Source: an uncultured Lentisphaerota bacterium | GTDB lineage: Bacteria > Verrucomicrobiota > Kiritimatiellia > CAIQIC01 | Length of the DNA stretch: 45,536 nucleotides | Direction: 5' to 3' | Assembly: GCA_903889245.1 (NCBI GenBank) | Contig: CAISWQ010000013.1 | Coordinates: forward strand, 1 to 45,536 | In this document: piece after piece, positions 578-41,474 of the stretch | Numbering within the stretch: position 1 is the stretch's first letter | Layout: every line of letters starts with the position of its first letter | Notes under the pieces: generated by a model | Told to the model about the DNA's origin: nothing | Seen by the model: only the letters and a program-made list of their open reading frames with translations | Databases searched by the model: none | Translations under genes and position numbers: made by a program

Positions 578-862
578 GAGCCTGTTGTATAACGGTAGTG
601 ACGGTAGGGTCAGACCTTGAACGGTGAATAGAGCGTAGTGGCATTCTCTACTCCTTCTCTTGTTGCACCGTTGGGGGGCGGGCTGTGCTCCCGCAGGCAG
701 GTTTCGGCGTCTGGCATCGGCCCAGTCCCAACAGGTCCCGTACATCTTATGTGATCCTTTCTTGAGGGCGGTGGCGTTAGAAACTCCGTCCACGCGCGGG
801 ACAAGTGTAGCAGGAAAATCAGCCGTAGGGCTAAACCATAAAATGTGCTAGTTTGCGGCGCG
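578..862. other. Non-coding gap, possible repeat remnant
   Basis: No supportable gene here. It contains GGGTCAGACCTTGAAC at 608-623, which resembles a motif I associate with REP-type elements, and a G-run followed by a GC-rich stretch near 666-695. No paired arm or transposase is visible, so I only flag it. Confidence 0.2.
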
Positions 863-2512
863 ATGCTGTGGATGGAAGACCAACCGATCGGACCGGCAAA
901 CACCCGGCCGACACCGCGCGCGCGGTGCGTGGTGTGGCTGCCGGCTGTGCTCGCCGTTGGTGTGCTGCTGGCGGGCTGTGGCGGGCTGTGGTGGCAGGCG
1001 GGGCGGGATACCGGCGGCTTCTGTCCCTATGTGCTGGACGACACCTACATCACCATGGCGATGGCCAAGCACGCCGCCGCCGGGGTCTGGGGCGTGACGC
1101 CGCATGAATTCAGCTCGACCACCTCCACGCCGCTGTGGGTGGCGTTGCTCGCCGGCTGTTACCGGTTGCTGGGGCCGCGCGAAGCCGCGCCGCTGGTATT
1201 GAGCAGCGCCACGGCGGTGGCGTTGCTGCTGACCCTGGGCTGGCTGCTGCGCCGCGAAGGCGTCCAGCCGCTACCGCTCGTACTGGTGCTGCTGGTGGCG
1301 ATGTTTGCGGTGCCGCTGATCCCCCTGCTGTTCTGCGGTTCGGAACATCCGCTGCACATGCTGCTGGTCGTGGGGCTGGTCTATGCCGGCGCGTTGGCGC
1401 TGGCGCCCGCGCCGCGCCGCGGTGCGCTGATCATCTGCTGCGCGCTGATCGTGCCCGCCGTGTTGACGCGTTATGAGAGCGCCTTCCTGGTGGCGGCCCT
1501 GATGTGGCTGGCCGTGGGGCGGCGGAAGTTCCTGGCGGCGTTCTGGCTGGGCTGCGCGGCAGCGCTGCCGCTGCTCGGGTACGGCCTGTGGTGCGCCAGC
1601 CACGGCTGGCCCCTCGTGCCCACCTCGATTCTCATGAAGGCGGCGCGGCCGGAGTTCAGCCTCGCCGGACTGTTGCGTTTCCTGGTGGGCGACACGCCCA
1701 AGGGCGCCGTGGGCCTGCTGGGCATCCTCACCACCCCCCATATGCTGGCGTTGTGTGTAGTGCTGCTCACCGCGTGGCTCGCCCTCCGCGCGCGCCCCGC
1801 CACACCGGCCACGGCCCTGGCCCGCGACGTGGTGGTGGTGGCGCTGGTGGGTACGCTGCTGCATATGCAACTGGCGCAGGTGGGCTGGTTCTATCGCTAT
1901 GAAAATTATCTGCTCCTGCTGGGCCTGGTCGCCGTGACCCTCGCGTGGCAGCAGGGCCTCGCGACACGGGGCGGCTGGACGCGCCGGGCGTGGCTGGCGC
2001 TGCTGGTGCTGGCCCTGTGTCCGCTGGCCCAGCGAGCCTGGCACGCGTTCCGCGATGTGCCGCGCGCCGCCCGGAACATTTACGAACAGCAGGTGCAAAT
2101 GGCGCTGTTCCTCCGCGAGCATTATGCCGGGCAGGCGATTGCAGCCAACGACATTGGCGCCATGAATTTTTTCACCGACCTGCGCCTGCTCGATACCCAC
2201 GGCATGGGCACCCTGGCGGTGTTTAACGCGAAGCGGGAACAAAGTTATGGCCCGGTCACGCTGGAGCAACTCGCCCGCCAGCACGGCGTACGGGTCGCCG
2301 TGATTTACCCCGAGTGGTTGGAGCGCAAATGGGGCGGCGTGCCATCTGCTTGGCGCCGGGTGGGCTCGTGGACCATCCCCGACAACATGATTTGTGCCCA
2401 TGCTACCGTGGTGTTCTATGCCGTGGCGGAGGGAGAGGATGAGCCTTTGCGACAGCGTCTCCAGGCTTTTGCCGCCAAGCTGCCACCCGCGGTAACCTGG
2501 CGGCTCCCCTGA
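863..2512 (+). CDS. GT-C-like polytopic membrane glycosyltransferase
   Basis: A 549-residue integral membrane protein with one N-terminal membrane segment (about residues 24-46), then an acidic loop with DDTYI at residues 59-63, then roughly ten further hydrophobic segments and a soluble C-terminal domain of about 160 residues. An acidic DD motif in the first periplasmic loop is the usual catalytic site of GT-C glycosyltransferases, which use polyprenyl-phosphate sugars on the outer face of the membrane; the sequence does not show which sugar. The loop sequence STTSTPLW after it is also seen in this broad group. An in-frame GTG lies at 845, but ATG 863 (or 872) is more likely. It converges with the next gene with a 7-base gap. 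Confidence 0.6.
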   Translation: MLWMEDQPIGPANTRPTPRARCVVWLPAVLAVGVLLAGCGGLWWQAGRDTGGFCPYVLDDTYITMAMAKHAAAGVWGVTPHEFSSTTSTPLWVALLAGCYRLLGPREAAPLVLSSATAVALLLTLGWLLRREGVQPLPLVLVLLVAMFAVPLIPLLFCGSEHPLHMLLVVGLVYAGALALAPAPRRGALIICCALIVPAVLTRYESAFLVAALMWLAVGRRKFLAAFWLGCAAALPLLGYGLWCASHGWPLVPTSILMKAARPEFSLAGLLRFLVGDTPKGAVGLLGILTTPHMLALCVVLLTAWLALRARPATPATALARDVVVVALVGTLLHMQLAQVGWFYRYENYLLLLGLVAVTLAWQQGLATRGGWTRRAWLALLVLALCPLAQRAWHAFRDVPRAARNIYEQQVQMALFLREHYAGQAIAANDIGAMNFFTDLRLLDTHGMGTLAVFNAKREQSYGPVTLEQLARQHGVRVAVIYPEWLERKWGGVPSAWRRVGSWTIPDNMICAHATVVFYAVAEGEDEPLRQRLQAFAAKLPPAVTWRLP

Positions 2513-2519
2513 CGGCTTT

Positions 2520-3467
2520 TCAGCGGCTCCACCGCCGGAAGCGATGCAGGACAAACAACGTGGCCAGACCCACCACCAGCACGCCGCTGGGCTCCGGGAT
2601 GACGCTCATGACCCAATCGGCCCGCTCGGAGACACGCGTCACGTAAAAATTCTGCGGCAGGTCCTGGGTGGTATTAGTGGCGAATTGCCAGCCCGAGGCG
2701 GTTTTATAATAGAGCCCGCCATAGTCGAACAGCGCGGCATAATAGCTACCCGCGTCGCTGGCGACCGTGTTGAACTGCACCGGGTCCACGGCCCAGTTGA
2801 TCCCGGCCAGCTTCCATAGGCCGCCGTCCTGCAGGAAGAAACCACCGCCGGAATCCTTGTCGGACAACATGCATTCGTTGGTCGAGCCGTCCGCGTCGAA
2901 GGCGGCGGCGAGATAGGGATTGCCATCGGCCACGCCCGTTTCGGTGACGGTATTGACGCCCCAGCGTTGCGTATAGTTGTAGGCACCCCACTTCCAGCCG
3001 CTCAAGTGGAGGTCGAGATTGGTGACGGCCGCCCCGCGGTCGGTGCCGCGGCCGAAGACGACGCCGGCCTGACCGGCCTCGTCACTGCTGGTATAGAGCG
3101 GGGCATAGCTGGCCAAGGCGCCGTTCACGCGGCATACGGTCAGATCGCTCAAGGGATCGTTGGTGACGGCCACGACGGAGAAGGTCTGGTCCTCGTAGCG
3201 GAAGGTCCAATTGGTGTCCACGGCCAGATGTTGGGCCGTGAGGAAATAGTTGGGCGCGATGGCGGTACCGAGATACTTCTTGTAGCTGTTTTCCAACAGG
3301 CCCTGCCATTGCCAGCCGCTGTTGGTGAGGCTGCCGGCGGGCGCGGTGGAGTTATACGCGGGATCGCCGGTGGCGTAGAACAGCACCGCACGCGCCGGCG
3401 GCTGGCAGAACCACGCGCAGCAGATCAGCAGGTACAGGAGCTGGAAGCGCGTGGCACAGCTCCTCAT
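2520..3467 (-). CDS. Trypsin-like serine protease with PEP-CTERM sorting tail
   Basis: A 315-residue exported protein. Residues 1-27 are a signal peptide. The trypsin fold is marked by TAQH (His80), SDLT (Asp108) and KDSGG (Ser206), so the catalytic triad looks complete. The C-terminus is a PEP-CTERM signal: PEP at 291-293, a hydrophobic helix, then the basic end RFRRWSR. Such tails are recognised and cut by exosortase, which is encoded in the same operon at 5763-6824. The start at 3467 follows GAGGTG with good spacing and lies 8 bases after the sugar transferase stop. The protein is probably translocated by Sec, held by the tail, processed, and released or attached to the surface polysaccharide. 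Substrate unknown. Confidence 0.85.
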   Translation of the reverse strand: MRSCATRFQLLYLLICCAWFCQPPARAVLFYATGDPAYNSTAPAGSLTNSGWQWQGLLENSYKKYLGTAIAPNYFLTAQHLAVDTNWTFRYEDQTFSVVAVTNDPLSDLTVCRVNGALASYAPLYTSSDEAGQAGVVFGRGTDRGAAVTNLDLHLSGWKWGAYNYTQRWGVNTVTETGVADGNPYLAAAFDADGSTNECMLSDKDSGGGFFLQDGGLWKLAGINWAVDPVQFNTVASDAGSYYAALFDYGGLYYKTASGWQFATNTTQDLPQNFYVTRVSERADWVMSVIPEPSGVLVVGLATLFVLHRFRRWSR

Positions 3468-3475
3468 GGGTCACC

Positions 3476-5002
3476 TCAATACGCACCCTCGGCCTTGAAC
3501 ACGGCGCGGAAAGTACGCACCAGGATGACCATGTCCAGCCAGACGGACCAGTTGCGGACATAGTACTGGTCCCAGCGTTCGAGGCCGGCGTTGCCGGAGT
3601 CGCTGCGGCCGGACACCTGCCAGAGGCCGGTGATGCCAGGCCGGACGCGGCGGCGAATCTCGCGCAGGCGCGCCGGCAGCTTGTCCTCGTGATAGGGCGG
3701 CAAGGGGCGCGGGCCGACGAGCGCCATGCTGCCCGCCAGGACGTTGAAAATCTGCGGGAGCTCATCGAGCGATGTCCGGCGCAGGAAACGGCCAACCCAC
3801 GTGATGCGCGGATCGCGCTTGAGCTTGCAGTGCGCTTCCCATTCGTGGCGCAGTTTTTCATCGGCGGCGAGGTGGCGGGCGAGCACCTCCTCGGCGTTAT
3901 GGACCATGGTGCGCAGCTTGAAGGTGTTGATGACCCGGCCGCGGAAGCCGATGCGTTTCTGGACGTAAAAGGGCGAACCGCGATCCTCCACCCAGACGAG
4001 GAAGGAAAACAGGGCGATCAGGGGCAGCCAGAGCGGCGCGGTCACCAGCAACAGCGCGAGCTCGAAGGTGCGCTTGAGAAACCGGTCGGTGGGCTTGACC
4101 AGGTTGTTGGAGATTTCCAACCCGATGACGCCGATGAACTCGCGCGGCCGCACCCAGAGCGAGGGCGCGTCCAGCAGGTCGGGAACGATGATGACGTGGC
4201 GGTAGGCGGCCAGCGGGCCCTCGATCAAGCCTGCCACCTGCTCGCGCGGCAGTTCTCCGGAAGCGAGGAAGGCACAGGGTGCCAGCGGCGTGCTCTCCTG
4301 CATCGGGCCGAAGACCGGCAGGCCGGCGATTTTGGACCCGCGCGGCGCGGCGTCGTCGAACACGCCGACGGCGTAATAGCCGAGGCCGCGTTCCTGTTGC
4401 AACACGCGCGCCACGTGTTCGAGGACGGGGCCCCAGCCATAGAGCACCGCGGGGATGCCCCAGCGGTGGATACGGATCAGATAGTTTTTGATCAGACTGC
4501 GGAATAATCCCACCAGGGGCGCCGCCACCAGGCAGGTGCTCGTGAGCGCGATACGGCTGGCCAGATCCGTGGTGTGCGTGAGGAACATGACGAAGGACAG
4601 GACGGCCAGGACCAAGCCGGTTAACAGCACCATGCGCCGGACGCTTTCGACGGCGCTGATGCCCCAGCCCGGCGTCAGCCGCAGCAACATGGCGCCAAGC
4701 CACCAGGCGGGAATCAACATGGCCCCGACATCCGCCAGCATGAATTCACCGCGCCAGAGCATGCGGATCAAACCGCCGAGCAGCAGGGCGGTCAGCAAGG
4801 CGAGCGCGTCGGCCAGCATCAGGAGCACACTATTGAGCAGGACGCGGAGATAATAGGCGTAGTCCGTCGCCGGCCGCGAAATCTGGAACGCATCCACGAA
4901 GGAATCGTTCAGTGGCGCTGTGGGGAAGCCCGGCGGCACGGCCCGGTCGCGGCCGCGTTCCAGCAGCGTCGCCTGCACGGGATCTGGCTGCGGCTGGCTC
5001 AT
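3476..5002 (-). CDS. Polyprenyl-phosphate sugar phosphotransferase (WbaP-like)
   Basis: A 508-residue initiating enzyme of exopolysaccharide synthesis. It transfers a sugar-1-phosphate from a nucleotide sugar to undecaprenyl phosphate on the cytoplasmic face. Four to five membrane segments fill residues 50-175, a Rossmann-like CoA-binding-type domain follows, then a further membrane segment and the bacterial sugar transferase domain. Diagnostic motifs are FKLRTM, DELPQIFNVL, LVGPRP and RPGITGLWQVSGRS. The start overlaps the epsI stop (ATGA), and the PEP-CTERM protease follows 8 bases later. This fits the known pairing of exosortase with exopolysaccharide genes. Which sugar it loads cannot be read from sequence. 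Confidence 0.9.
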   Translation of the reverse strand: MSQPQPDPVQATLLERGRDRAVPPGFPTAPLNDSFVDAFQISRPATDYAYYLRVLLNSVLLMLADALALLTALLLGGLIRMLWRGEFMLADVGAMLIPAWWLGAMLLRLTPGWGISAVESVRRMVLLTGLVLAVLSFVMFLTHTTDLASRIALTSTCLVAAPLVGLFRSLIKNYLIRIHRWGIPAVLYGWGPVLEHVARVLQQERGLGYYAVGVFDDAAPRGSKIAGLPVFGPMQESTPLAPCAFLASGELPREQVAGLIEGPLAAYRHVIIVPDLLDAPSLWVRPREFIGVIGLEISNNLVKPTDRFLKRTFELALLLVTAPLWLPLIALFSFLVWVEDRGSPFYVQKRIGFRGRVINTFKLRTMVHNAEEVLARHLAADEKLRHEWEAHCKLKRDPRITWVGRFLRRTSLDELPQIFNVLAGSMALVGPRPLPPYHEDKLPARLREIRRRVRPGITGLWQVSGRSDSGNAGLERWDQYYVRNWSVWLDMVILVRTFRAVFKAEGAY

Positions 5003-5760
5003 GCTTTTCCGGGTTGGGGCGCCGCCAGCTTGAGCTGGGGATAGAGCCGGCTGGCAAAATCCTCGATCTGTTTTTGGAACCCGTTCGAATCGGCCTCGCG
5101 CCGGCCGGCAATCGCGATGTAGGCCCAGCGGTGCGCCACACTATGGATGATCCGGTCCCACGCCAGCCAGAACATGCGTTCCCAGTGATGCGGCGTCTCG
5201 CGGCCCTGCCCGGCGAACCAGTAGGCGTAATAGCCAGTCAGGGCGCGGCGCCCGGAACGCACATCCAGCGGCCGCACGGTTTCCAGTACCATGACATCCA
5301 GCCGGGCCTGGTCCTTCAGCGGCGCTTCCAGGACATAGCTCTTCTGGATGCTGTTGCCCTGGCCCACCAGGCAACGCTCGGGCCGGTGGATGCTTTCGCG
5401 CTCGCGCCCGCTCAACACGATGGACACAAACACGTCCTCGCCCACCGAGTTGGTGTACTTGCCCTTCAGGAACTCCGTATCCTTGGGCAGGCTTTCGTAT
5501 TCCACCAGCGTCATGGTGAACAGCTCCGCGCCGCAGGCCGGGCATTTCCCGGCATCCTTCAACTGCTCCCGCGCGAACTCCTTCAGGCACGCGGCGTTGT
5601 GGCAAAACCGCAGCTCGGTACCTGTCCATGGGCCGAGCTTCACCGGCAGCAGCATGCGGATGCCCGCCTGATCCGCCACCTGCACGTCCACGGTGAACTG
5701 CAACGCCAGCACAGCCAGCAGCAGCAGCACAATAACGATGATGAACGGCCGATATTTCAT
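4999..5760 (-). CDS. epsI: EpsI-family exosortase-associated protein with zinc-ribbon-like insert
   Basis: A 253-residue protein with one N-terminal membrane anchor (residues 5-22) and a periplasmic EpsI domain carrying the family motif HRPERCLVGQG (His125, Cys130). EpsI proteins accompany exosortases and exopolysaccharide genes; their exact role is not established. Between residues 53 and 76 four cysteines (Cys53, Cys58, Cys73, Cys76; pattern C-x4-C ... C-x2-C) form what looks like a zinc ribbon, which the classic EpsI domain lacks. The start at 5760 lies 2 bases after the exosortase stop; the frame stays open upstream to 6024, but that part is antisense-like low-complexity sequence. Confidence 0.85.
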   Translation of the reverse strand: MKYRPFIIVIVLLLLAVLALQFTVDVQVADQAGIRMLLPVKLGPWTGTELRFCHNAACLKEFAREQLKDAGKCPACGAELFTMTLVEYESLPKDTEFLKGKYTNSVGEDVFVSIVLSGRERESIHRPERCLVGQGNSIQKSYVLEAPLKDQARLDVMVLETVRPLDVRSGRRALTGYYAYWFAGQGRETPHHWERMFWLAWDRIIHSVAHRWAYIAIAGRREADSNGFQKQIEDFASRLYPQLKLAAPQPGKA

Positions 5761-5762
5761 GC

Positions 5763-6824
5763 TCACCGGCCTTCCGCCGCCCCCTCCCGCGCCAGCAGCC
5801 AGCCGCGGGCCCGCCGCCACTGCTTCCGGTAATCCATGTTCAGCAACGCGCCCACGCCCACCATCAGGCTCACCGCCACGATGAACATGATGTAGCCGGA
5901 ATAGTCGTGGTAGATCTTCAGCGCCGCCTTCTCGCCAAACGCCGCCGAGACGATGATGATGCTGATGATGCGCGCCGAGTTGCCCGCCAGCGCCAGCGGG
6001 ATGCCCACGAGGAACAGGGTCCACTGCTTGAGCAGGGTCTTCTGGGTGAAATAGGCATAGCCCGCCGTCACCGCCAGCATGGCCAGCAACGAGCGCAACC
6101 CGCTGCAGGGGTCGGCCACATCGAACTTCAGGCCGCCGGAGACATCCGAGAGAATCTGCGAGCCGGAACTATAGACCCCGATGCCCAGCGCGTTGGCCAC
6201 ATGCGTCGAGAACGACGTGGCGAAGATGCGCAGCGGGAACGACAGTGTGTCCAGAAACGTCAGCGGGATGCAAAAGATCAGGTAGGCCGCCGGGAAAATC
6301 AGTTGCCGCGCCACCTGCCAGCCGAAGAAGTAAAACGGCACCCCCCACAGCAGCATGATCAACGCGAACAACGAGAGGCGCGTCTGCTGGATCTTGACAC
6401 CCAGCCAGTGGATCAGCAGCGCCAGCACGATCACCGCCAGACCCCACTGGCAGATTTGCTTGGGCGCCGCAATCAGCTCGCGCCGCCGGTACCACAGCAC
6501 CGCCAAGCTCAACAACGGGATCAGCTTGCCATGCGAATAGTCCGCGCCGCCATACGAGATGCTGTCCGTCCAGCGCGACATCATCCAGGAGAACGCCGAC
6601 CGGCTGTCCACGTTATGTTCCACCGCGTTGCCCAGCAGGTGGAACAGCACGAAAATCAGCCCGATGATCGCCGACATGAAGCCAAGTTGGAGTACCTGTT
6701 CGCGCTCCAGCACCGCCAGCCGCCAGCGTTCGCTAAGGATCGCCGGTTTGGGCGGCGTGGCCGGAGTATGGTTGGCTGCGTCGTTCACGCTGGCGACTCT
6801 AAGGGAAATCTCCAGATGCTGCAA
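5763..6824 (-). CDS. Exosortase (PEP-CTERM sorting transpeptidase)
   Basis: A 353-residue integral membrane protein with about eight membrane segments from residue 48 onward and a soluble N-terminal 40 residues. The exosortase active site is intact: Cys240 in ADPCSGLRSL, Arg285 in GNSARI and His306 in YHDYSGY. Exosortases cleave PEP-CTERM proteins at the membrane and are thought to pass them to a surface acceptor. It is the first gene of a four-gene operon with epsI, a sugar transferase and a PEP-CTERM protease. The hydrophilic N-terminal extension before the first membrane helix makes the exact start uncertain. Confidence 0.92.
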   Translation of the reverse strand: MQHLEISLRVASVNDAANHTPATPPKPAILSERWRLAVLEREQVLQLGFMSAIIGLIFVLFHLLGNAVEHNVDSRSAFSWMMSRWTDSISYGGADYSHGKLIPLLSLAVLWYRRRELIAAPKQICQWGLAVIVLALLIHWLGVKIQQTRLSLFALIMLLWGVPFYFFGWQVARQLIFPAAYLIFCIPLTFLDTLSFPLRIFATSFSTHVANALGIGVYSSGSQILSDVSGGLKFDVADPCSGLRSLLAMLAVTAGYAYFTQKTLLKQWTLFLVGIPLALAGNSARIISIIIVSAAFGEKAALKIYHDYSGYIMFIVAVSLMVGVGALLNMDYRKQWRRARGWLLAREGAAEGR

Positions 6825-6916
6825 GCATCGCCGCGCCCGGCACCCGGTCGTTCACAGGAGCCAAGCGCTTTCCTGGCCCAGCGTGCGCGCCGCTCCTGCA
6901 ACCGGGACCGGTCTGC

Positions 6917-7597
6917 TTAAACGGCGGAGACGCGGGCCTCGGCGAGGATCTTGACGCCGGCGGAGACGCCGAGGCGCGTGGCGCCGGCCGCGATCATCGC
7001 CAGCGCGTCGGCGAGGGTGCGGATGCCGCCGGAGGCCTTGACGCCGAGGCCGGCGGCCTTGACCTGCTCCGCCAGCAGCCGGACGTCGGCGACCGTCGCG
7101 CCGCCGGTACTGAAGCCGGTCGAGGTCTTGACGAAATCCGCGCCCGCCTCCACACAGAGCTGGCAGGCGAGGCTTTTTTCCTCCGGCGTGAGCAGGCAGG
7201 TTTCGAGGATGACCTTGCTGATGACGCCGTGCGCGCGGCAGAGCTGCGTGACGGCGAAGATGTCGTAGCTGGCGAGCGGCCGCTGGCCGCCCTTGAGCGC
7301 GCCGACGTTGAGCACCATGTCCACCTCCTGCGCGCCGAGTTCGATGACGCGGGCGGTCTCGTGGGCCTTGACGGTGGTCAGCGTCGCGCCGAGCGGGAAG
7401 CCGACGACGGTGCAGACCTTGACGCCGGAGCCGGAAAGTTCACGCGCCGCCAGCGGCACCCACGTGGGATTGACGCAGACGGAGCAGAAGGAATTTTCGC
7501 GCGCCTCGTGGCAGAGACGAAGCAGGTCGGCCTCGGTGGCCTCGGGCTTGAGGAGCGTGTGATCCATCAAGGCGGCTAGCTGGGCGGGCGCGAGCAT
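6917..7597 (-). CDS. deoC: Deoxyribose-phosphate aldolase
   Basis: Class I aldolase that splits 2-deoxyribose 5-phosphate into glyceraldehyde 3-phosphate and acetaldehyde in deoxynucleoside breakdown. The TIM-barrel signatures are all present: MDHTLLKP near the N-terminus, [19 protein letters not shown], the Schiff-base lysine in FVKTSTGF and the second lysine in [10 protein letters not shown]. Length (226 residues from ATG 7597) is normal for the short bacterial type. A TTG at 7609 overlapping the stop of the upstream foldase (TTGA) would add four residues and allow translational coupling. Its pairing with a periplasmic foldase gene has no obvious metabolic logic. Confidence 0.93.
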
Positions 7598-7605
7598 GGC
7601 GGCGC

Positions 7606-9375
7606 TCAATAGATGTTGGCCGGCACTTCGCGGCGGTCGGGCGCGCGGCGCTCGGGCTCGGCCGGCTCATCCTCGCTGGCGACGCGGGCGCGGCGGTCGG
7701 TGAAGCGCTCGGCCTTGAGCAGGTAGGCGGAGAAGGATTCGTCCAGCGCGCGCAGCTTCTGGCGCTGCACGGAGGCCTGCACCTGCGGCAGGAGGCCCTT
7801 GAGGGTCGCCTCGTCGGCGCCCTTGCGCTCGATGACGCGGGCGACGAGCAGGCTGCCGTCGTTGCCGCGCTGTATATCGCAGACTTCGCCCGCGTTGTGC
7901 AGCATGGCGGACCGCAGCAGGACCTCGGCGTTTTCATTCGTCTGGGAGCGCGCCGTCATCACGTTGCCGGTCAGCGTCAGCGTCGTCACGCCAAGCGGCT
8001 GCACGATCGCGGCCACGGACTGCGCGGGCGCGGCCTTGGCCAGCGCCTCGCGCACCAGGTTGGCCTTGGTCTCCTGCGCCTTGGTGTTGGCCTCCTGGCG
8101 CGCGGCCTGGAGCGCGTCCTGCGCGACCTCGGTGAACTGGGGCACGCGCGCGGGCAGGCGCTGGTCCAGATAGAGCACGTACATGCCATCGGCCCCGCGG
8201 ATGCCGTCGCTGAACCGCTCGTCGGCGTTGGTGCCGAGCGCGAACGCGGTGCGGGTGAAGGTGGGCACATCCTCGAGGGCGGGCAGCGCTTCGCCCGCGG
8301 TGAACGGGCCGGCGGTGCGGATGGCCAGGTTCGATTTCGTCGCCGCCTCGGCCAGGGTCAGGCACTTGCCTTTGCGGTCCGGTGCGAGCAGGTTGGCAAA
8401 CTCGGAGGCGAGGTCGGCGGCGCGGTTCCGCGCGCCCTCCTGCTGGAGCAGGGCGAAGATGTTGGTCTTGACGGTATCGAACGGCAGCCGCTCCTGCTGC
8501 TGGCTGATGGCCGGCGCGGCGTTCGTCACGCCCAGCGGCGGCGGGTTGGTCACGCTGACGAGGCGGGTGAAGCGCTGCATGTTCTCGTTATAGTAGGCCA
8601 TCGCCTCCTCCACTGTGGAGGTCACACTGGCGACGTAGTTGGAGAACGGAAAGACCACATAACTGACCTGCACCTTTTCCGGAACGGTGAAGGCCTTCGG
8701 GTCGCGGTCGAACAGCGCCTGCGCCTCCTTGACCGTCACACTCCTGGCGGCGTTGGTGTCGGCGGGGATGCTGGCGTAGTCGAGCCGGAAGAAATCACTC
8801 AAGGAGGCGACGGTCTGCTGCACCTCGCTGGGCGCCACCTGCAGCGTGCTGGAGATCGCGACGCGCAACTTCTCCAGCAGGATTTCCTGGCGCAGATAAT
8901 CCTCGAATTGCAGCAGGTTGATGCCTAATTCGCCCAGCGTGCTGCGGACAAACATGGCGAAGCGCTGCTCGTTGAAGCGGCCCTCGTGCTGGAAGGCGGG
9001 CTGGCCCTCAATGGCGTTGCGGATTTCGCCATCGGTCGTCAGCGGCAGGCCGAGGGCCAGCGCCTGGTGCTCGGCGGAGACGCGCTGCCAGGTGGTCTTG
9101 CGCAGCTCCTTCTCAAACTCGGCGGACTGCTGCGGCATCCGGCCGATCATCAGGCCGATGGCCACGCGACTGTTGATATAGGAGCGCTGGAACTCCTCGG
9201 GCGGCACCGGTTTGCCATTCAGCAGACCCGCGGCACGGTCCTGCTCGTTCTCGCTGACGCTCTTGCCCGTCTGGGAGCCCCAGTAAACGAAGGCGATGAT
9301 GATGAGGACGAGCAGCACCCCCCAGACGGCGCGTGACTGGATCATCCGGTGAAACTTGGAAATCATCATTACCAT
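7606..9375 (-). CDS. Membrane-anchored PpiD/SurA-like periplasmic foldase
   Basis: A 589-residue protein with one N-terminal membrane anchor (about residues 16-34) followed by a long periplasmic region. The segment after the anchor has the SurA_N/PpiD layout ([11 protein letters not shown], then an alpha-helical chaperone arm), and the middle resembles a degenerate parvulin-type domain. PpiD-like proteins help outer-membrane and secreted proteins fold after translocation. I cannot confirm an active prolyl-isomerase site, so chaperone function is the safer call. The start at 9375 is fixed by GGAAGGA eight bases upstream; an open frame to 9438 runs back over the promoter. The C-terminal 30 residues are charged and Pro/Arg-rich. 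Confidence 0.75.
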
Positions 9376-38918: not shown

Positions 38919-39602
38919 ATGCAAGTCCGCCTAGAGAGCGTGTCGGGTCAACGCCGGCAGGCGTTCACGATGATCGAATTGCTCGTGGTCATCGTCATCA
39001 TCGCCATTCTGGCGGGGCTGTTGTTGCCGGCCGTGATCGGCGGCCTGAAAAAGGCCGATATCACCCAGGCCCAGTCCGAAACCAAGCTGATCGCCATGGC
39101 GATGGAGGCCTTTCGTCAGGATTATGGCAAATGGCCGGCGGAATATCCCGGCCGTGACACCTCCACCCAGGCCTATTGGGATTATGCCGACCTGATCAAC
39201 ACCCTGCGGGGCAGCAATATCACGGGCACGGTCCAAGACCAACTGGGCTTGAGCGGCAATCATTGGGCCAACCAGAATCCCAAACGGAAGGTCTATCTCC
39301 AAGTGTCGGAGAAAAGCATCGTCACCAACACCTCCGGCACAGCCGGAACCTATTCCGGCACGACAGCGGCCAACAACCAGCCCTATGCGGCCTCGTCCGG
39401 CATGTTGGCCGACCCGTGGGGCAACCGCTATGTGGTCCTGCCCGATTGGAACATGGATGGCGAAATCCGGGGGGCGGATGGCGAAACGTCCATCCGGGCC
39501 AACGTGGCGGTCTGGTCCTGGGGCCCCAACCCCACCCCCGGCTCCGGCGGCACGCTGGAGAACCCGACCAACACCACCCATATCCGCTCGTGGCGCAACT
39601 GA
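38919..39602 (+). CDS. GspG-like type II secretion pseudopilin 1
   Basis: A 227-residue prepilin-like protein. The N-terminal class III signal is RRQAFTMIELLVVIVIIAILAG, split here at the peptidase site A-FTMIE with Glu at +5; prepilin peptidase would cut before Phe. Then comes the long helix and the mixed globular head with DPWGNRYVV (residues about 165-173), a GspG hallmark loop, and end THIRSWRN. These proteins polymerise into the type II secretion pseudopilus. It begins an eight-gene co-oriented run and shares long stretches of near-identical DNA with the gene at 40206, so they are recent duplicates. Confidence 0.88.
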   Translation: MQVRLESVSGQRRQAFTMIELLVVIVIIAILAGLLLPAVIGGLKKADITQAQSETKLIAMAMEAFRQDYGKWPAEYPGRDTSTQAYWDYADLINTLRGSNITGTVQDQLGLSGNHWANQNPKRKVYLQVSEKSIVTNTSGTAGTYSGTTAANNQPYAASSGMLADPWGNRYVVLPDWNMDGEIRGADGETSIRANVAVWSWGPNPTPGSGGTLENPTNTTHIRSWRN

Positions 39603-39687
39603 CGGGTATAAGTCCTGCTTGACCTATCTTTGGCATAGACGGCAGAGGTCGTTGGTGTATAGTGCCCCGGCGGTCAGGAACATGGTT

Positions 39688-40188
39688 ATGAAGATAGAAG
39701 CCAACGGACAGCGACCGGCGGGTGGCGAGCGCCGTGGATTCACCATGGTGGAGCTTTTAGCAGTCATCACCATCATCATGATTCTGGCGGGGTTGGTGCT
39801 CGGCGCGGCGGCGTGGGCCAGCCGGAAGGGAGACCTGGCCCGCTGTCAGGGGCGCATGCAACTGCTCAAAAACGCGCTGGATGAATACAAGCTGGATTAC
39901 GGGAAAGTCCCGCAGGGCAGTTACACCTTGTTGTACACGGAGTTGTTCAGCAAGCCCTTGAGCAGTGGCCGGCCCGGTGGCGAACGCAAGCCCTATATCA
40001 GCGATACGAATTTCCTGAACACCAGCAAGCAGTTCGTGGACCCATGGGGCAACTACTTCCGTTACCAGGCGCCGGGAGCGCGCAACAAAGAGGCCTATGA
40101 TCTCTGGTCCTTTGGCCCCAATGGGAAGGACGAGAGTGGCAGTTCCACCGGTTCTGACGATCTCAACAACTGGTCGTCAGGTCATTAA
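39688..40188 (+). CDS. Short pseudopilin-like protein
   Basis: A 166-residue prepilin-like protein with peptidase site G-FTMVELLAV and hydrophobic N-helix, then a head with FVDPWGNYFRYQ and an acidic/Ser-rich C-terminus ending WSFGPNGKDESGSS. It keeps the GspG-type DPWGN loop but is shorter and clearly divergent from its three neighbours. ATG 39688 is 8 bases after AGGA; an in-frame ATG at 39682 would be too close to it. The gap of 85 bases upstream contains TATAGT (39658-39663), the same -10-like box as before pilin 1, so it may have its own promoter. Confidence 0.85.
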   Translation: MKIEANGQRPAGGERRGFTMVELLAVITIIMILAGLVLGAAAWASRKGDLARCQGRMQLLKNALDEYKLDYGKVPQGSYTLLYTELFSKPLSSGRPGGERKPYISDTNFLNTSKQFVDPWGNYFRYQAPGARNKEAYDLWSFGPNGKDESGSSTGSDDLNNWSSGH

Positions 40189-40205
40189 TTTTGGCGCGTG
40201 CGGAC

Positions 40206-40853
40206 ATGAGACTCGACTCCAAGCTGGTTCCGGTGCAGGCCCGGCAGGCGTTCACGATGATCGAACTGCTGGTGGTGATCGTCATCATCGCCATCCTCGC
40301 GGGGCTGTTGCTGCCGGCGGTGATCGGCGGCCTCAAGAAGGCCGATATCACCCAGGCCCAGACGGAGACCAAACTGCTGGAGTCCGCCTTGATGTCCTAT
40401 TGGAACGACTTCGGCAAGTTCCCGGGCCAGGCCATCAACATCTCCGGTGGCGGCATCGTGGACCACAAGTACGAGCACTATCCGCGCATGATTGCCACCC
40501 TGCGCGGCTCCAATCTTCCCGGCGGCAACGCACAGACCTTGCTGGGGATCAGCGGCAACAACTGGTACAACCAGAATCCCGGCCAAAAGGTGTATTTGCA
40601 AGTCAATGAAAAGAGCATAGCCACCAACGGCTCGGTCACACTCGGCTACGCCATCCCGGCCACGTTGGGCGATCTGGCCGACCCGTGGGGCAACCGCTAT
40701 GTGGTGATGGCCGACTGGAGCGGGGACGGACAGATTCAGGCCGATGGTGAAACCCTGATGCGTAAGGTGGCGGTCTGGTCGTGGGGCCCGGACACGAAGG
40801 CTGTGGGCGTATTCAGTTCGACCAACACCTCGCACATTCGCTCGTGGAGATGA
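40206..40853 (+). CDS. GspG-like type II secretion pseudopilin 2
   Basis: A 215-residue paralogue of pilin 1: same processing site A-FTMIELL, same helix, DPWGNRYVVMADW in the head and a THIRSW-like end. The DNA encoding the N-helix differs from that of pilin 1 mainly at third positions, and the head diverges in the middle, as expected for two major pseudopilins kept side by side. ATG 40206 is the likely start; the frame stays open to TTG 40191. It ends 3 bases before the next gene. Confidence 0.88.
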   Translation: MRLDSKLVPVQARQAFTMIELLVVIVIIAILAGLLLPAVIGGLKKADITQAQTETKLLESALMSYWNDFGKFPGQAINISGGGIVDHKYEHYPRMIATLRGSNLPGGNAQTLLGISGNNWYNQNPGQKVYLQVNEKSIATNGSVTLGYAIPATLGDLADPWGNRYVVMADWSGDGQIQADGETLMRKVAVWSWGPDTKAVGVFSSTNTSHIRSWR

Positions 40854-40856
40854 GTC

Positions 40857-41474
40857 ATGAAAAAGCTATCCGTAAGCAACGGTCAGCGGTCTGTCGGCAA
40901 CCGGCAGCAGCCGGGATGGTTCCGCGGGTTCACGCTCGTGGAGTTGCTGGTGGTCATCACCATCATCGCCCTGCTGGCGGGCCTGCTCCTGCCGGTGATT
41001 ATCGGCGCCATCGGCAAGGCGGAGAAGGCCAAGGCGCAGGCCGAGGTCAATGCCCTTGCCACGGCGATCGAGCAATATCAGATTGAATACAGCAAGTACC
41101 CGGGCCAGTCCACAGGCAGCAGCGGCGACCATCAATACGGTGCTTCCGAATATCGCAATCTGGTGGATACCCTGCGCGGGACGAACATCTCGTGGGGAGG
41201 TGGCTATGCCAATCCCCGCGGGCATGTGTTCTTGAGTGTGGATGAGAAGAGCATCGTGGCTTCCAACGCCTCAGGCACGGCCTCGGTGGGCATGTGGTCC
41301 GATCCGTGGGGCAACCGCTATGAAGCCATTGCGGATTGGAATTTCGACAACAAGATTGATAATCCCCTGGCCGATGGCGCCCGCATCTCGGGGCGCGGCG
41401 TGGCCGTGTGGTCCCGCGGACCCAAGGGGATTGCCACGGCCGGCGATCCCACCCACATTCGTTCCTGGAAGTGA
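40857..41474 (+). CDS. GspG-like type II secretion pseudopilin 3
   Basis: A 205-residue prepilin-like protein with peptidase site G-FTLVELLVV, IGAIGKAEKAKAQAEV in place of the KKADITQAQ segment, and a head with DPWGNRYEAIADW and end THIRSWK. The leader before the peptidase site is long (about 27 residues) and low in complexity (SNGQRSVGNRQQ), possibly repeat-derived. It is followed 7 bases later by the GspH-like gene. Three large GspG paralogues in one operon suggest alternate pseudopili or different major subunits. Confidence 0.87.
   Translation: MKKLSVSNGQRSVGNRQQPGWFRGFTLVELLVVITIIALLAGLLLPVIIGAIGKAEKAKAQAEVNALATAIEQYQIEYSKYPGQSTGSSGDHQYGASEYRNLVDTLRGTNISWGGGYANPRGHVFLSVDEKSIVASNASGTASVGMWSDPWGNRYEAIADWNFDNKIDNPLADGARISGRGVAVWSRGPKGIATAGDPTHIRSWK

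Follow-up and report, generated by a model that had tools for sequence, protein, structure and literature searches.

A PEP-CTERM-tailed protease gene at the end of an exosortase operon in one genus of Kiritimatiellia

Gene content of the exosortase locus

The window analysed here is the complete contig C13 (45,536 bases; GenBank CAISWQ010000013.1) of an uncultured Lentisphaerota bacterium of the class Kiritimatiellia, whose draft genome (GCA_903889245.1, designated G000 below) comprises 5.26 Mb in 125 contigs and is 96.6% complete. Between positions 2520 and 6824, four genes lie nearly end to end on the minus strand and encode, in the order of reading, an exosortase, EpsI, a WbaP-like sugar transferase and an S1-type serine protease with a PEP-CTERM tail (Table 1). 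This agrees with the content and order proposed earlier in a sequence-only reading of the same stretch, including the position of the protease as the last gene. The start of the transferase gene and the stop of the epsI gene overlap by 4 bp, and 8 bp separate the transferase stop from the protease ATG, which is preceded by a GAGGTGA-like stretch. The four genes are presumably co-transcribed. A promoter scan of positions 2300-7700 returned 0 promoter-like sites (shuffled mean 0.7), a terminator scan of the same region returned five terminator-like sites (shuffled mean 3.5, standard deviation 2.1), and an Rfam scan of the window gave no match.

The exosortase, referred to here as type 1, exceeds the cut-off of the family model TIGR02602 (161.5 bits, cut-off 105.55) and matches PF09721 with an E-value of 2.3e-50. 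The motifs PCSG, NSAR and YHD supply Cys240, Arg285 and His306, so that the protein belongs to the exosortase family with its conserved cysteine. The start of the gene is uncertain and may be the TTG at 6824 or a codon further in. The model of the XrtA subtype (TIGR03109) gave 149.2 bits with a cut-off of 208, and none of the subtype models listed was reached. The transferase exceeds the cut-off of TIGR03025 (312.7, cut-off 295.55) and thereby provides the neighbouring exopolysaccharide gene characteristic of an exosortase/PEP-CTERM system. Its best E-value was obtained with the WbaP model, yet the score lies under the cut-off of that model (373.6 of 403).

EpsI was recognised by PF11984 (3.1e-14). 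Its likely start is the ATG at 5760, giving 253 residues, and the open reading frame of 341 residues starts too early. Residues 53-76 (window positions 5533-5604) of this EpsI, which stands at the type 1 exosortase, form a zinc-ribbon-like insert with four cysteines. Among 32 distinct EpsI sequences, mostly the closest matches, taken from 253 genomes with a match, all four cysteines are present in 27, all four are lost together in four, and one is lost in one. A simple pattern search covered 28 DUF3485 loci from 18 genomes, with all but three of the loci (25) lying outside the class, and found the four-cysteine pattern in the EpsI of the window only. The search of the open-access literature, which covered titles and the starts of abstracts and left subscription journals and preprints outside its scope, revealed no paper on EpsI, by title, for exosortase, EpsI and zinc.

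Table 1. Features of the exosortase locus and the adjoining gene (positions in the window)
Feature	Position	Strand	Basis
Exosortase (type 1), up to 353 residues	5763..6824	-	TIGR02602 over cut-off, PF09721, motifs
EpsI, 253 residues, four-cysteine zinc-ribbon-like insert (C53 H54 C58 C73 C76)	4999..5760	-	PF11984; start and cysteine conservation
Polyprenyl-phosphate sugar-1-phosphate transferase, WbaP-like, 508 residues	3476..5002	-	TIGR03025 over cut-off, PF02397
S1-type serine protease, 315 residues, signal-peptide-like N-terminus (by eye), PEP-CTERM tail	2520..3467	-	
Catalytic His80 codon	3228..3230	-	Family alignment
Catalytic Asp108 codon	3144..3146	-	Family alignment
Catalytic Ser206 codon (DSGGG)	2850..2852	-	Family alignment
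PEP-CTERM tail: IPEP, hydrophobic stretch, RFRRWSR, stop	2520..2600	-	
Hydrophobic protein, possibly a glycosyltransferase; converges on the protease end of the operon	845..2512	+	Weak matches only (NCBIfam LA_3751 family, E 0.23)

Conservation of the gene order

Six genomes of the family were compared, including four of one genus (G000 to G003) and two of its sister genus (G004 and G005). The order exosortase-EpsI-transferase-protease was found in three of the four genus genomes (G000, G002 and G003), where 8, 11 and 11 bp, respectively, precede the protease start; within the genus, the protease gene is thus conserved beside the exosortase, and the outcome that the sequence-only reading had named as refuting its proposal does not occur there. 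With random gene placement, about 0.04 PEP-CTERM genes would be expected within 4 kb of the type 1 exosortase. Chance is an unlikely cause of this neighbourhood because the same order, with such short gaps, recurs in the three congeners, and chance or a reading artefact was discarded as an explanation in view of the order in three genomes and the conserved catalytic triad.

The fourth genus genome, G001, is a 94% complete draft in which the exosortase, EpsI and transferase genes are followed by a TIGR03790 gene; a search at an E-value of 0.01 gave no match to the protease in this genome. It possesses one exosortase, of type 1, and seven sequences that score over the PEP-CTERM cut-off. With a sorter and tagged proteins present and the protease absent, the exosortase can evidently do without it. 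In G004 and G005 the exosortase and EpsI genes are followed by a TIGR03790 gene, with no transferase or protease match at the locus; G004 encodes a distant PEP-CTERM-tailed relative of the protease on a separate contig.

The protease is present in 44 of 288 genomes of the class and in 43 of 387 genomes of the phylum, the two samples overlapping. Together with the family genomes, they yield 64 protease-bearing genomes, and an exosortase is also present in 62 of these. Only in G000, G002, G003 and G399 does the protease lie within 10 kb of an exosortase, and in G399 the distance is 7.8 kb and the PEP-CTERM tail is missing. In none of the 61 protease-bearing genomes other than G000, G002 and G003 were the two genes seen within 5 kb, a result that covers distances only for the eight in which both are on one contig. 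Conservation of the order across the class was found neither in gene maps, nor in protease-exosortase distances, nor in a set of 18 loci with a type 1 exosortase.

In five of the six family genomes, a gene for a TIGR03790 protein lies no more than about 6 kb from the exosortase (among the loci are L127:2282-4261 and L146:4619-6793). In G003, one of the five, it is a piece under the cut-off at a contig end. In G000 the TIGR03790 gene (L186:963-3149) is found close to where contig C14 starts, a position compatible with C14 adjoining the left end of the window. That end bears a short inverted repeat (positions 1-80), and C14 begins with what we take to be the 5' part of an IS3-type transposase gene (L186:1-80); the assembly probably broke at a repeat here. 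No paper on TIGR03790 was found in the open-access literature.

The protease and its family

The window protease alone shows a weak match to Trypsin_2 (0.006), under the Pfam cut-off, and a comparison with PDB sequences gave chance-level matches, the best of which (E 0.11) is not a protease. A profile of 35 family sequences led to chymotrypsin-fold peptidases among the PDB sequences (best E-value 2.3e-8), and 11 of the 35 members match Pfam Trypsin at E-values up to 0.01. The family profile and the matches of its members establish the relationship with S1 peptidases of the chymotrypsin fold. The complete catalytic triad attributed earlier to a trypsin-like protease is borne out by the alignment: across 53 family rows, His80 is found in 52, with a gap in the remaining one, Asp108 in 51, the other two having a gap and a Glu, and Ser206 in all 53. 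A single row is gapped at both the His80 and the Asp108 positions, and the Glu belongs to G399. The structural model predicted from seven sequences was poor (mean pLDDT 52.7, pTM 0.59), and the Foldseek search with it, which placed chymotrypsin first (2.5e-5) at a TM-score of about 0.25, gives weak support. It is likely that the protein is proteolytically active.

A search of named genomes found six loci with the protease. The matches in named metagenome-assembled genomes comprise one assigned to Lentisphaerae (67% identity), three assigned to Verrucomicrobiota/Verrucomicrobia (41-44%), one to Kiritimatiellaeota (45%) and a short one to Patescibacteria. In the phylogenetic tree of the family, PEP-CTERM tails and other C-termini are interleaved, with eight changes for the three labels together. 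C-termini other than PEP-CTERM occur in 36 of the 52 tree rows overall and in most rows from outside the genus, and several phylum genomes outside the genus encode a family member with a PEP-CTERM tail. Some of the non-PEP C-termini match TSP3 (4 of 35) or DUF11 (2 of 35). The tree omits a fragment (G166), an off-frame row (G226), and repeat readings of G004, of G202 and of the contigs behind L063 and L066. Among the rows labelled as having another tail, G186 and G174 reach the contig end, so that their true tail is not covered, and G085, with a degenerate IPEV, was counted with them.

PEP-CTERM proteins of the genome

The tail of the protease has the form VIPEP-hydrophobic-RFRRWSR, in which the motif, the hydrophobic stretch and the basic end are all present by eye. 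Besides the protease, 25 PEP-CTERM sequences of the genome score over the cut-off of TIGR02595, distributed over many contigs; 24 of them are readable to the C-terminal tail. The true number of separate PEP-CTERM genes may be a little under 25. A sequence over the cut-off also turned up in two of 14 control genomes, so that a few may be due to chance; three of the matches, each from a different contig, represent one and the same tail; and another is one of the mini proteins at a second exosortase. The system therefore comprises several PEP-CTERM proteins and not the single target of a dedicated sorting system, and the type 1 exosortase presumably serves many proteins. A pairing of one exosortase with one substrate was rejected on the grounds of these matches and of the gene content of G001.

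Two protease subfamilies in one position

The tree of 52 rows placed the proteases of the window and of G002 on one side of a branch with support 100/99 and the protease of G003 on the other side. The placement of the three operon proteases in one clade was rejected with p 8.6e-33, the group having been named after the tree was seen. The tails were compared by BLOSUM62 scores over the last 29 residues. The comparison set was drawn from the 111 PEP-CTERM matches found in the four genus genomes besides the window protease, of which 105 entered and 98 were readable; the six that did not enter are three of the eight G001 matches and, from G000, the three weakest. All but one of these 98 tails hold PEP, the exception being G002 C258, which has no PEP tail by eye. 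The operon tails score 82, 74 and 71 against each other, and their best scores against the 98 other tails of the genus are 57, 59 and 68. The tail could have been kept while the catalytic domain was exchanged, an inherited pair of genes could have been sorted out between lineages, or the tails could have converged.

A likeness of C-termini between the subfamilies was also observed outside the operon. In the genus g28, for example, the last 70 residues are 81% identical across the subfamilies and the catalytic cores 31% (G042, G065). In the tandem pair of G075, also of g28, the corresponding values are 61% and 30%. The protease family is thus modular, and its C-termini pass between subfamilies. 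Because the subfamilies have C-termini in common away from the operon too, the likeness of the operon tails need not mean a special role, and the persistence of position and tail is weakened as a proof of such a role. Tandem pairs containing both subfamilies were seen at L075 (G042), where one protein has a PEP-CTERM tail, and at L073 (G075), where both have a like non-PEP C-terminus.

The second exosortase and other features

The gene of a second exosortase is preceded by two tandem genes for mini PEP-CTERM proteins in G000 (L142:8113-9456; about 74112-75455 of contig C56) and also at L143, L144 and L294. The frames encode 69-100 residues, including a signal-peptide-like start. In each of the three genus genomes (G000, G002 and G003) the first mini protein contains the linker AVVRPPPxSPYD, and the linkers in G202 are unrelated. 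The pair accompanies every one of the four exosortases of this subfamily that were found in the class, that of G000 included; these four are the only class matches of at least 59% identity, and none of the 26 next best exosortase loci has such mini proteins within 1.5 kb. The second exosortase with its two mini proteins is a stronger case of dedicated pairing than the protease operon, and it may be the better model of a minimal sorting system. Upstream of it, G000 encodes a hybrid histidine kinase; frames with a like C-terminus exist in G002 and G003, and no match to the kinase was found in 12 kb of G202.

At the place matching that of the gene converging on the protease end of the operon in the window, G002 has a convergent gene for an Alg9-like protein (E 0.009); the two products have no mutual blastp match at 1e-4. 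Further along the window, positions 38919-41474 encode three tandem proteins, which we take to be prepilin-like. The N-terminal regions of the first two are near-identical.

Comparison with known sorting systems

The comparisons below refer to excerpts of the cited papers. The present locus resembles the exosortase/PEP-CTERM system described for EpsH (PMC1569441) in the combination of an exosortase with EpsI, an exopolysaccharide-type transferase nearby and many PEP-CTERM proteins. It differs in the cargo gene standing last in the operon, in the four-cysteine insert of EpsI and in not reaching the XrtA cut-off. The rhombosortase/GlyGly-CTERM system (PMC3237569) likewise has trypsin-like proteases among its tagged cargo and different C-terminal tags within some families, but the sorting enzymes are unrelated. 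According to the excerpt of that paper, a sorter with a single target is termed dedicated, and sorter and target are adjacent in most single-target genomes, in a few genomes with a pair of targets and in no other multi-target genome. The operon described here represents an arrangement which that excerpt does not report for rhombosortase, found in this case for an exosortase.

In Nostoc (CrtB and the scy locus, PMC12188702), 35 PEP-CTERM proteins have been predicted and PEP-CTERM proteins are also encoded inside a functional operon; that cargo, however, belongs to the scy locus, which is separate from that of crtB, and no protease is named in the excerpt. The pepA-prsT pair of Aquincola (PMC9850573) is similar in that a PEP-CTERM gene lies beside another gene of the system, but this gene is upstream of prsT and, in the excerpt, is neither placed beside the exosortase nor called a protease. 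In the open-access literature, as judged by titles and the starts of abstracts, no protease cargo inside an exosortase operon was found, and work linking exosortases with Kiritimatiellia was limited to a planctomycete paper.

Interpretation of the protease operon

It seems, with a probability of roughly 0.6, that the locus is an ordinary multi-target exosortase/PEP-CTERM locus and that one cargo gene joined the exosortase operon within one genus. Since a protease in the exosortase operon was found, among the genomes examined, only within this genus, the arrangement appears to be a known sorting system with a local modification, and not an enzyme paired with a substrate dedicated to it. Following the sorting model for exosortases (PMC1569441, PMC12188702, in excerpt), the signal peptide would export the protease, the PEP-CTERM tail would hold it in the inner membrane, and the neighbouring exosortase would cut the tail at the PEP motif, as for other tagged proteins. 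The cut protein would then end up on the cell surface or in the exopolysaccharide matrix and act there as a surface protease on its putative targets. The last position in the operon may tie the level of the protease to that of the sorting machinery. The type 1 rather than the second exosortase probably cuts this tail, because of its position and because G001, whose only exosortase is of type 1, has VPEP and IPEP tails.

Several observations weigh against this explanation. The protease tail, plain by eye, scores under the curated cut-offs (14.4 of 16 for TIGR02595 and 11.9 of 20.7 for PF07589). Cargo beside the sorter is uncommon where targets are many, as the excerpt of PMC3237569 describes for rhombosortase and as is seen here, where a PEP-CTERM tail lies within 6 kb of the type 1 exosortase at three of 18 loci, those of G000, G002 and G003 (the tail pattern used recovers 85 of the 98 model-found tails). 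Besides, that proteases of two subfamilies occupy the position, with tails that resemble each other, may point to something beyond passive placement.

The last point bears on the suggestion that the operon protease is a dedicated accessory, produced together with the sorter and acting in trans on other sorted proteins to mature or release them. The filling of the position by two subfamilies in three of the four genus genomes, and the higher scores of the operon tails with each other than with any of the 98 others, speak in its favour. It is nevertheless improbable: G001 has a sorter and tagged proteins without the protease, none of the 61 other genomes with the family showed it next to an exosortase (both on one contig in eight), and the sharing of C-termini across subfamilies extends beyond the operon. 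Nothing found favours the maturation or release of sorted proteins over ordinary surface proteolysis. Of the dedicated substrate proposed earlier, the conservation beside the exosortase in three genus genomes survives; the dedication itself is not supported, in view of the 25 other PEP-CTERM matches, of G001, of the sister genus, which lacks the protease at the locus, and of the distances and the mostly different C-termini outside the genus. Somewhat less plausible still is that the operon needs a surface protease and that position and tail were inherited while the catalytic domain was swapped between anciently separate subfamilies; with action in trans, this would make a sorter-plus-maturase unit.

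A third account, unlikely but better placed than both of these, is that a permissive operon end took in protease genes of a modular family, each lineage keeping one, with no special functional link. The tandem pairs of both subfamilies in G042 and G075, the g28 C-termini that are more alike between subfamilies than the catalytic cores, and the lack of a protease match in G001 would be expected from it. However, the gene maps of G000, G002 and G003 contain no second copy beside the operon gene (remnants were not searched for), and the short spacing in each of them points to selection for co-expression. The explanation as a multi-target locus with one cargo gene taken into the operon is preferred here.

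For most exosortases, little is known of the substrates and of what these do. Where an operon links the sorter with an enzyme of recognisable type, it offers a testable cargo, and surface protease activity could report on the processing of the tail. If the persistence of position and tail in this genus reflects function, it would be a hint of a protease step tied to exosortase sorting.

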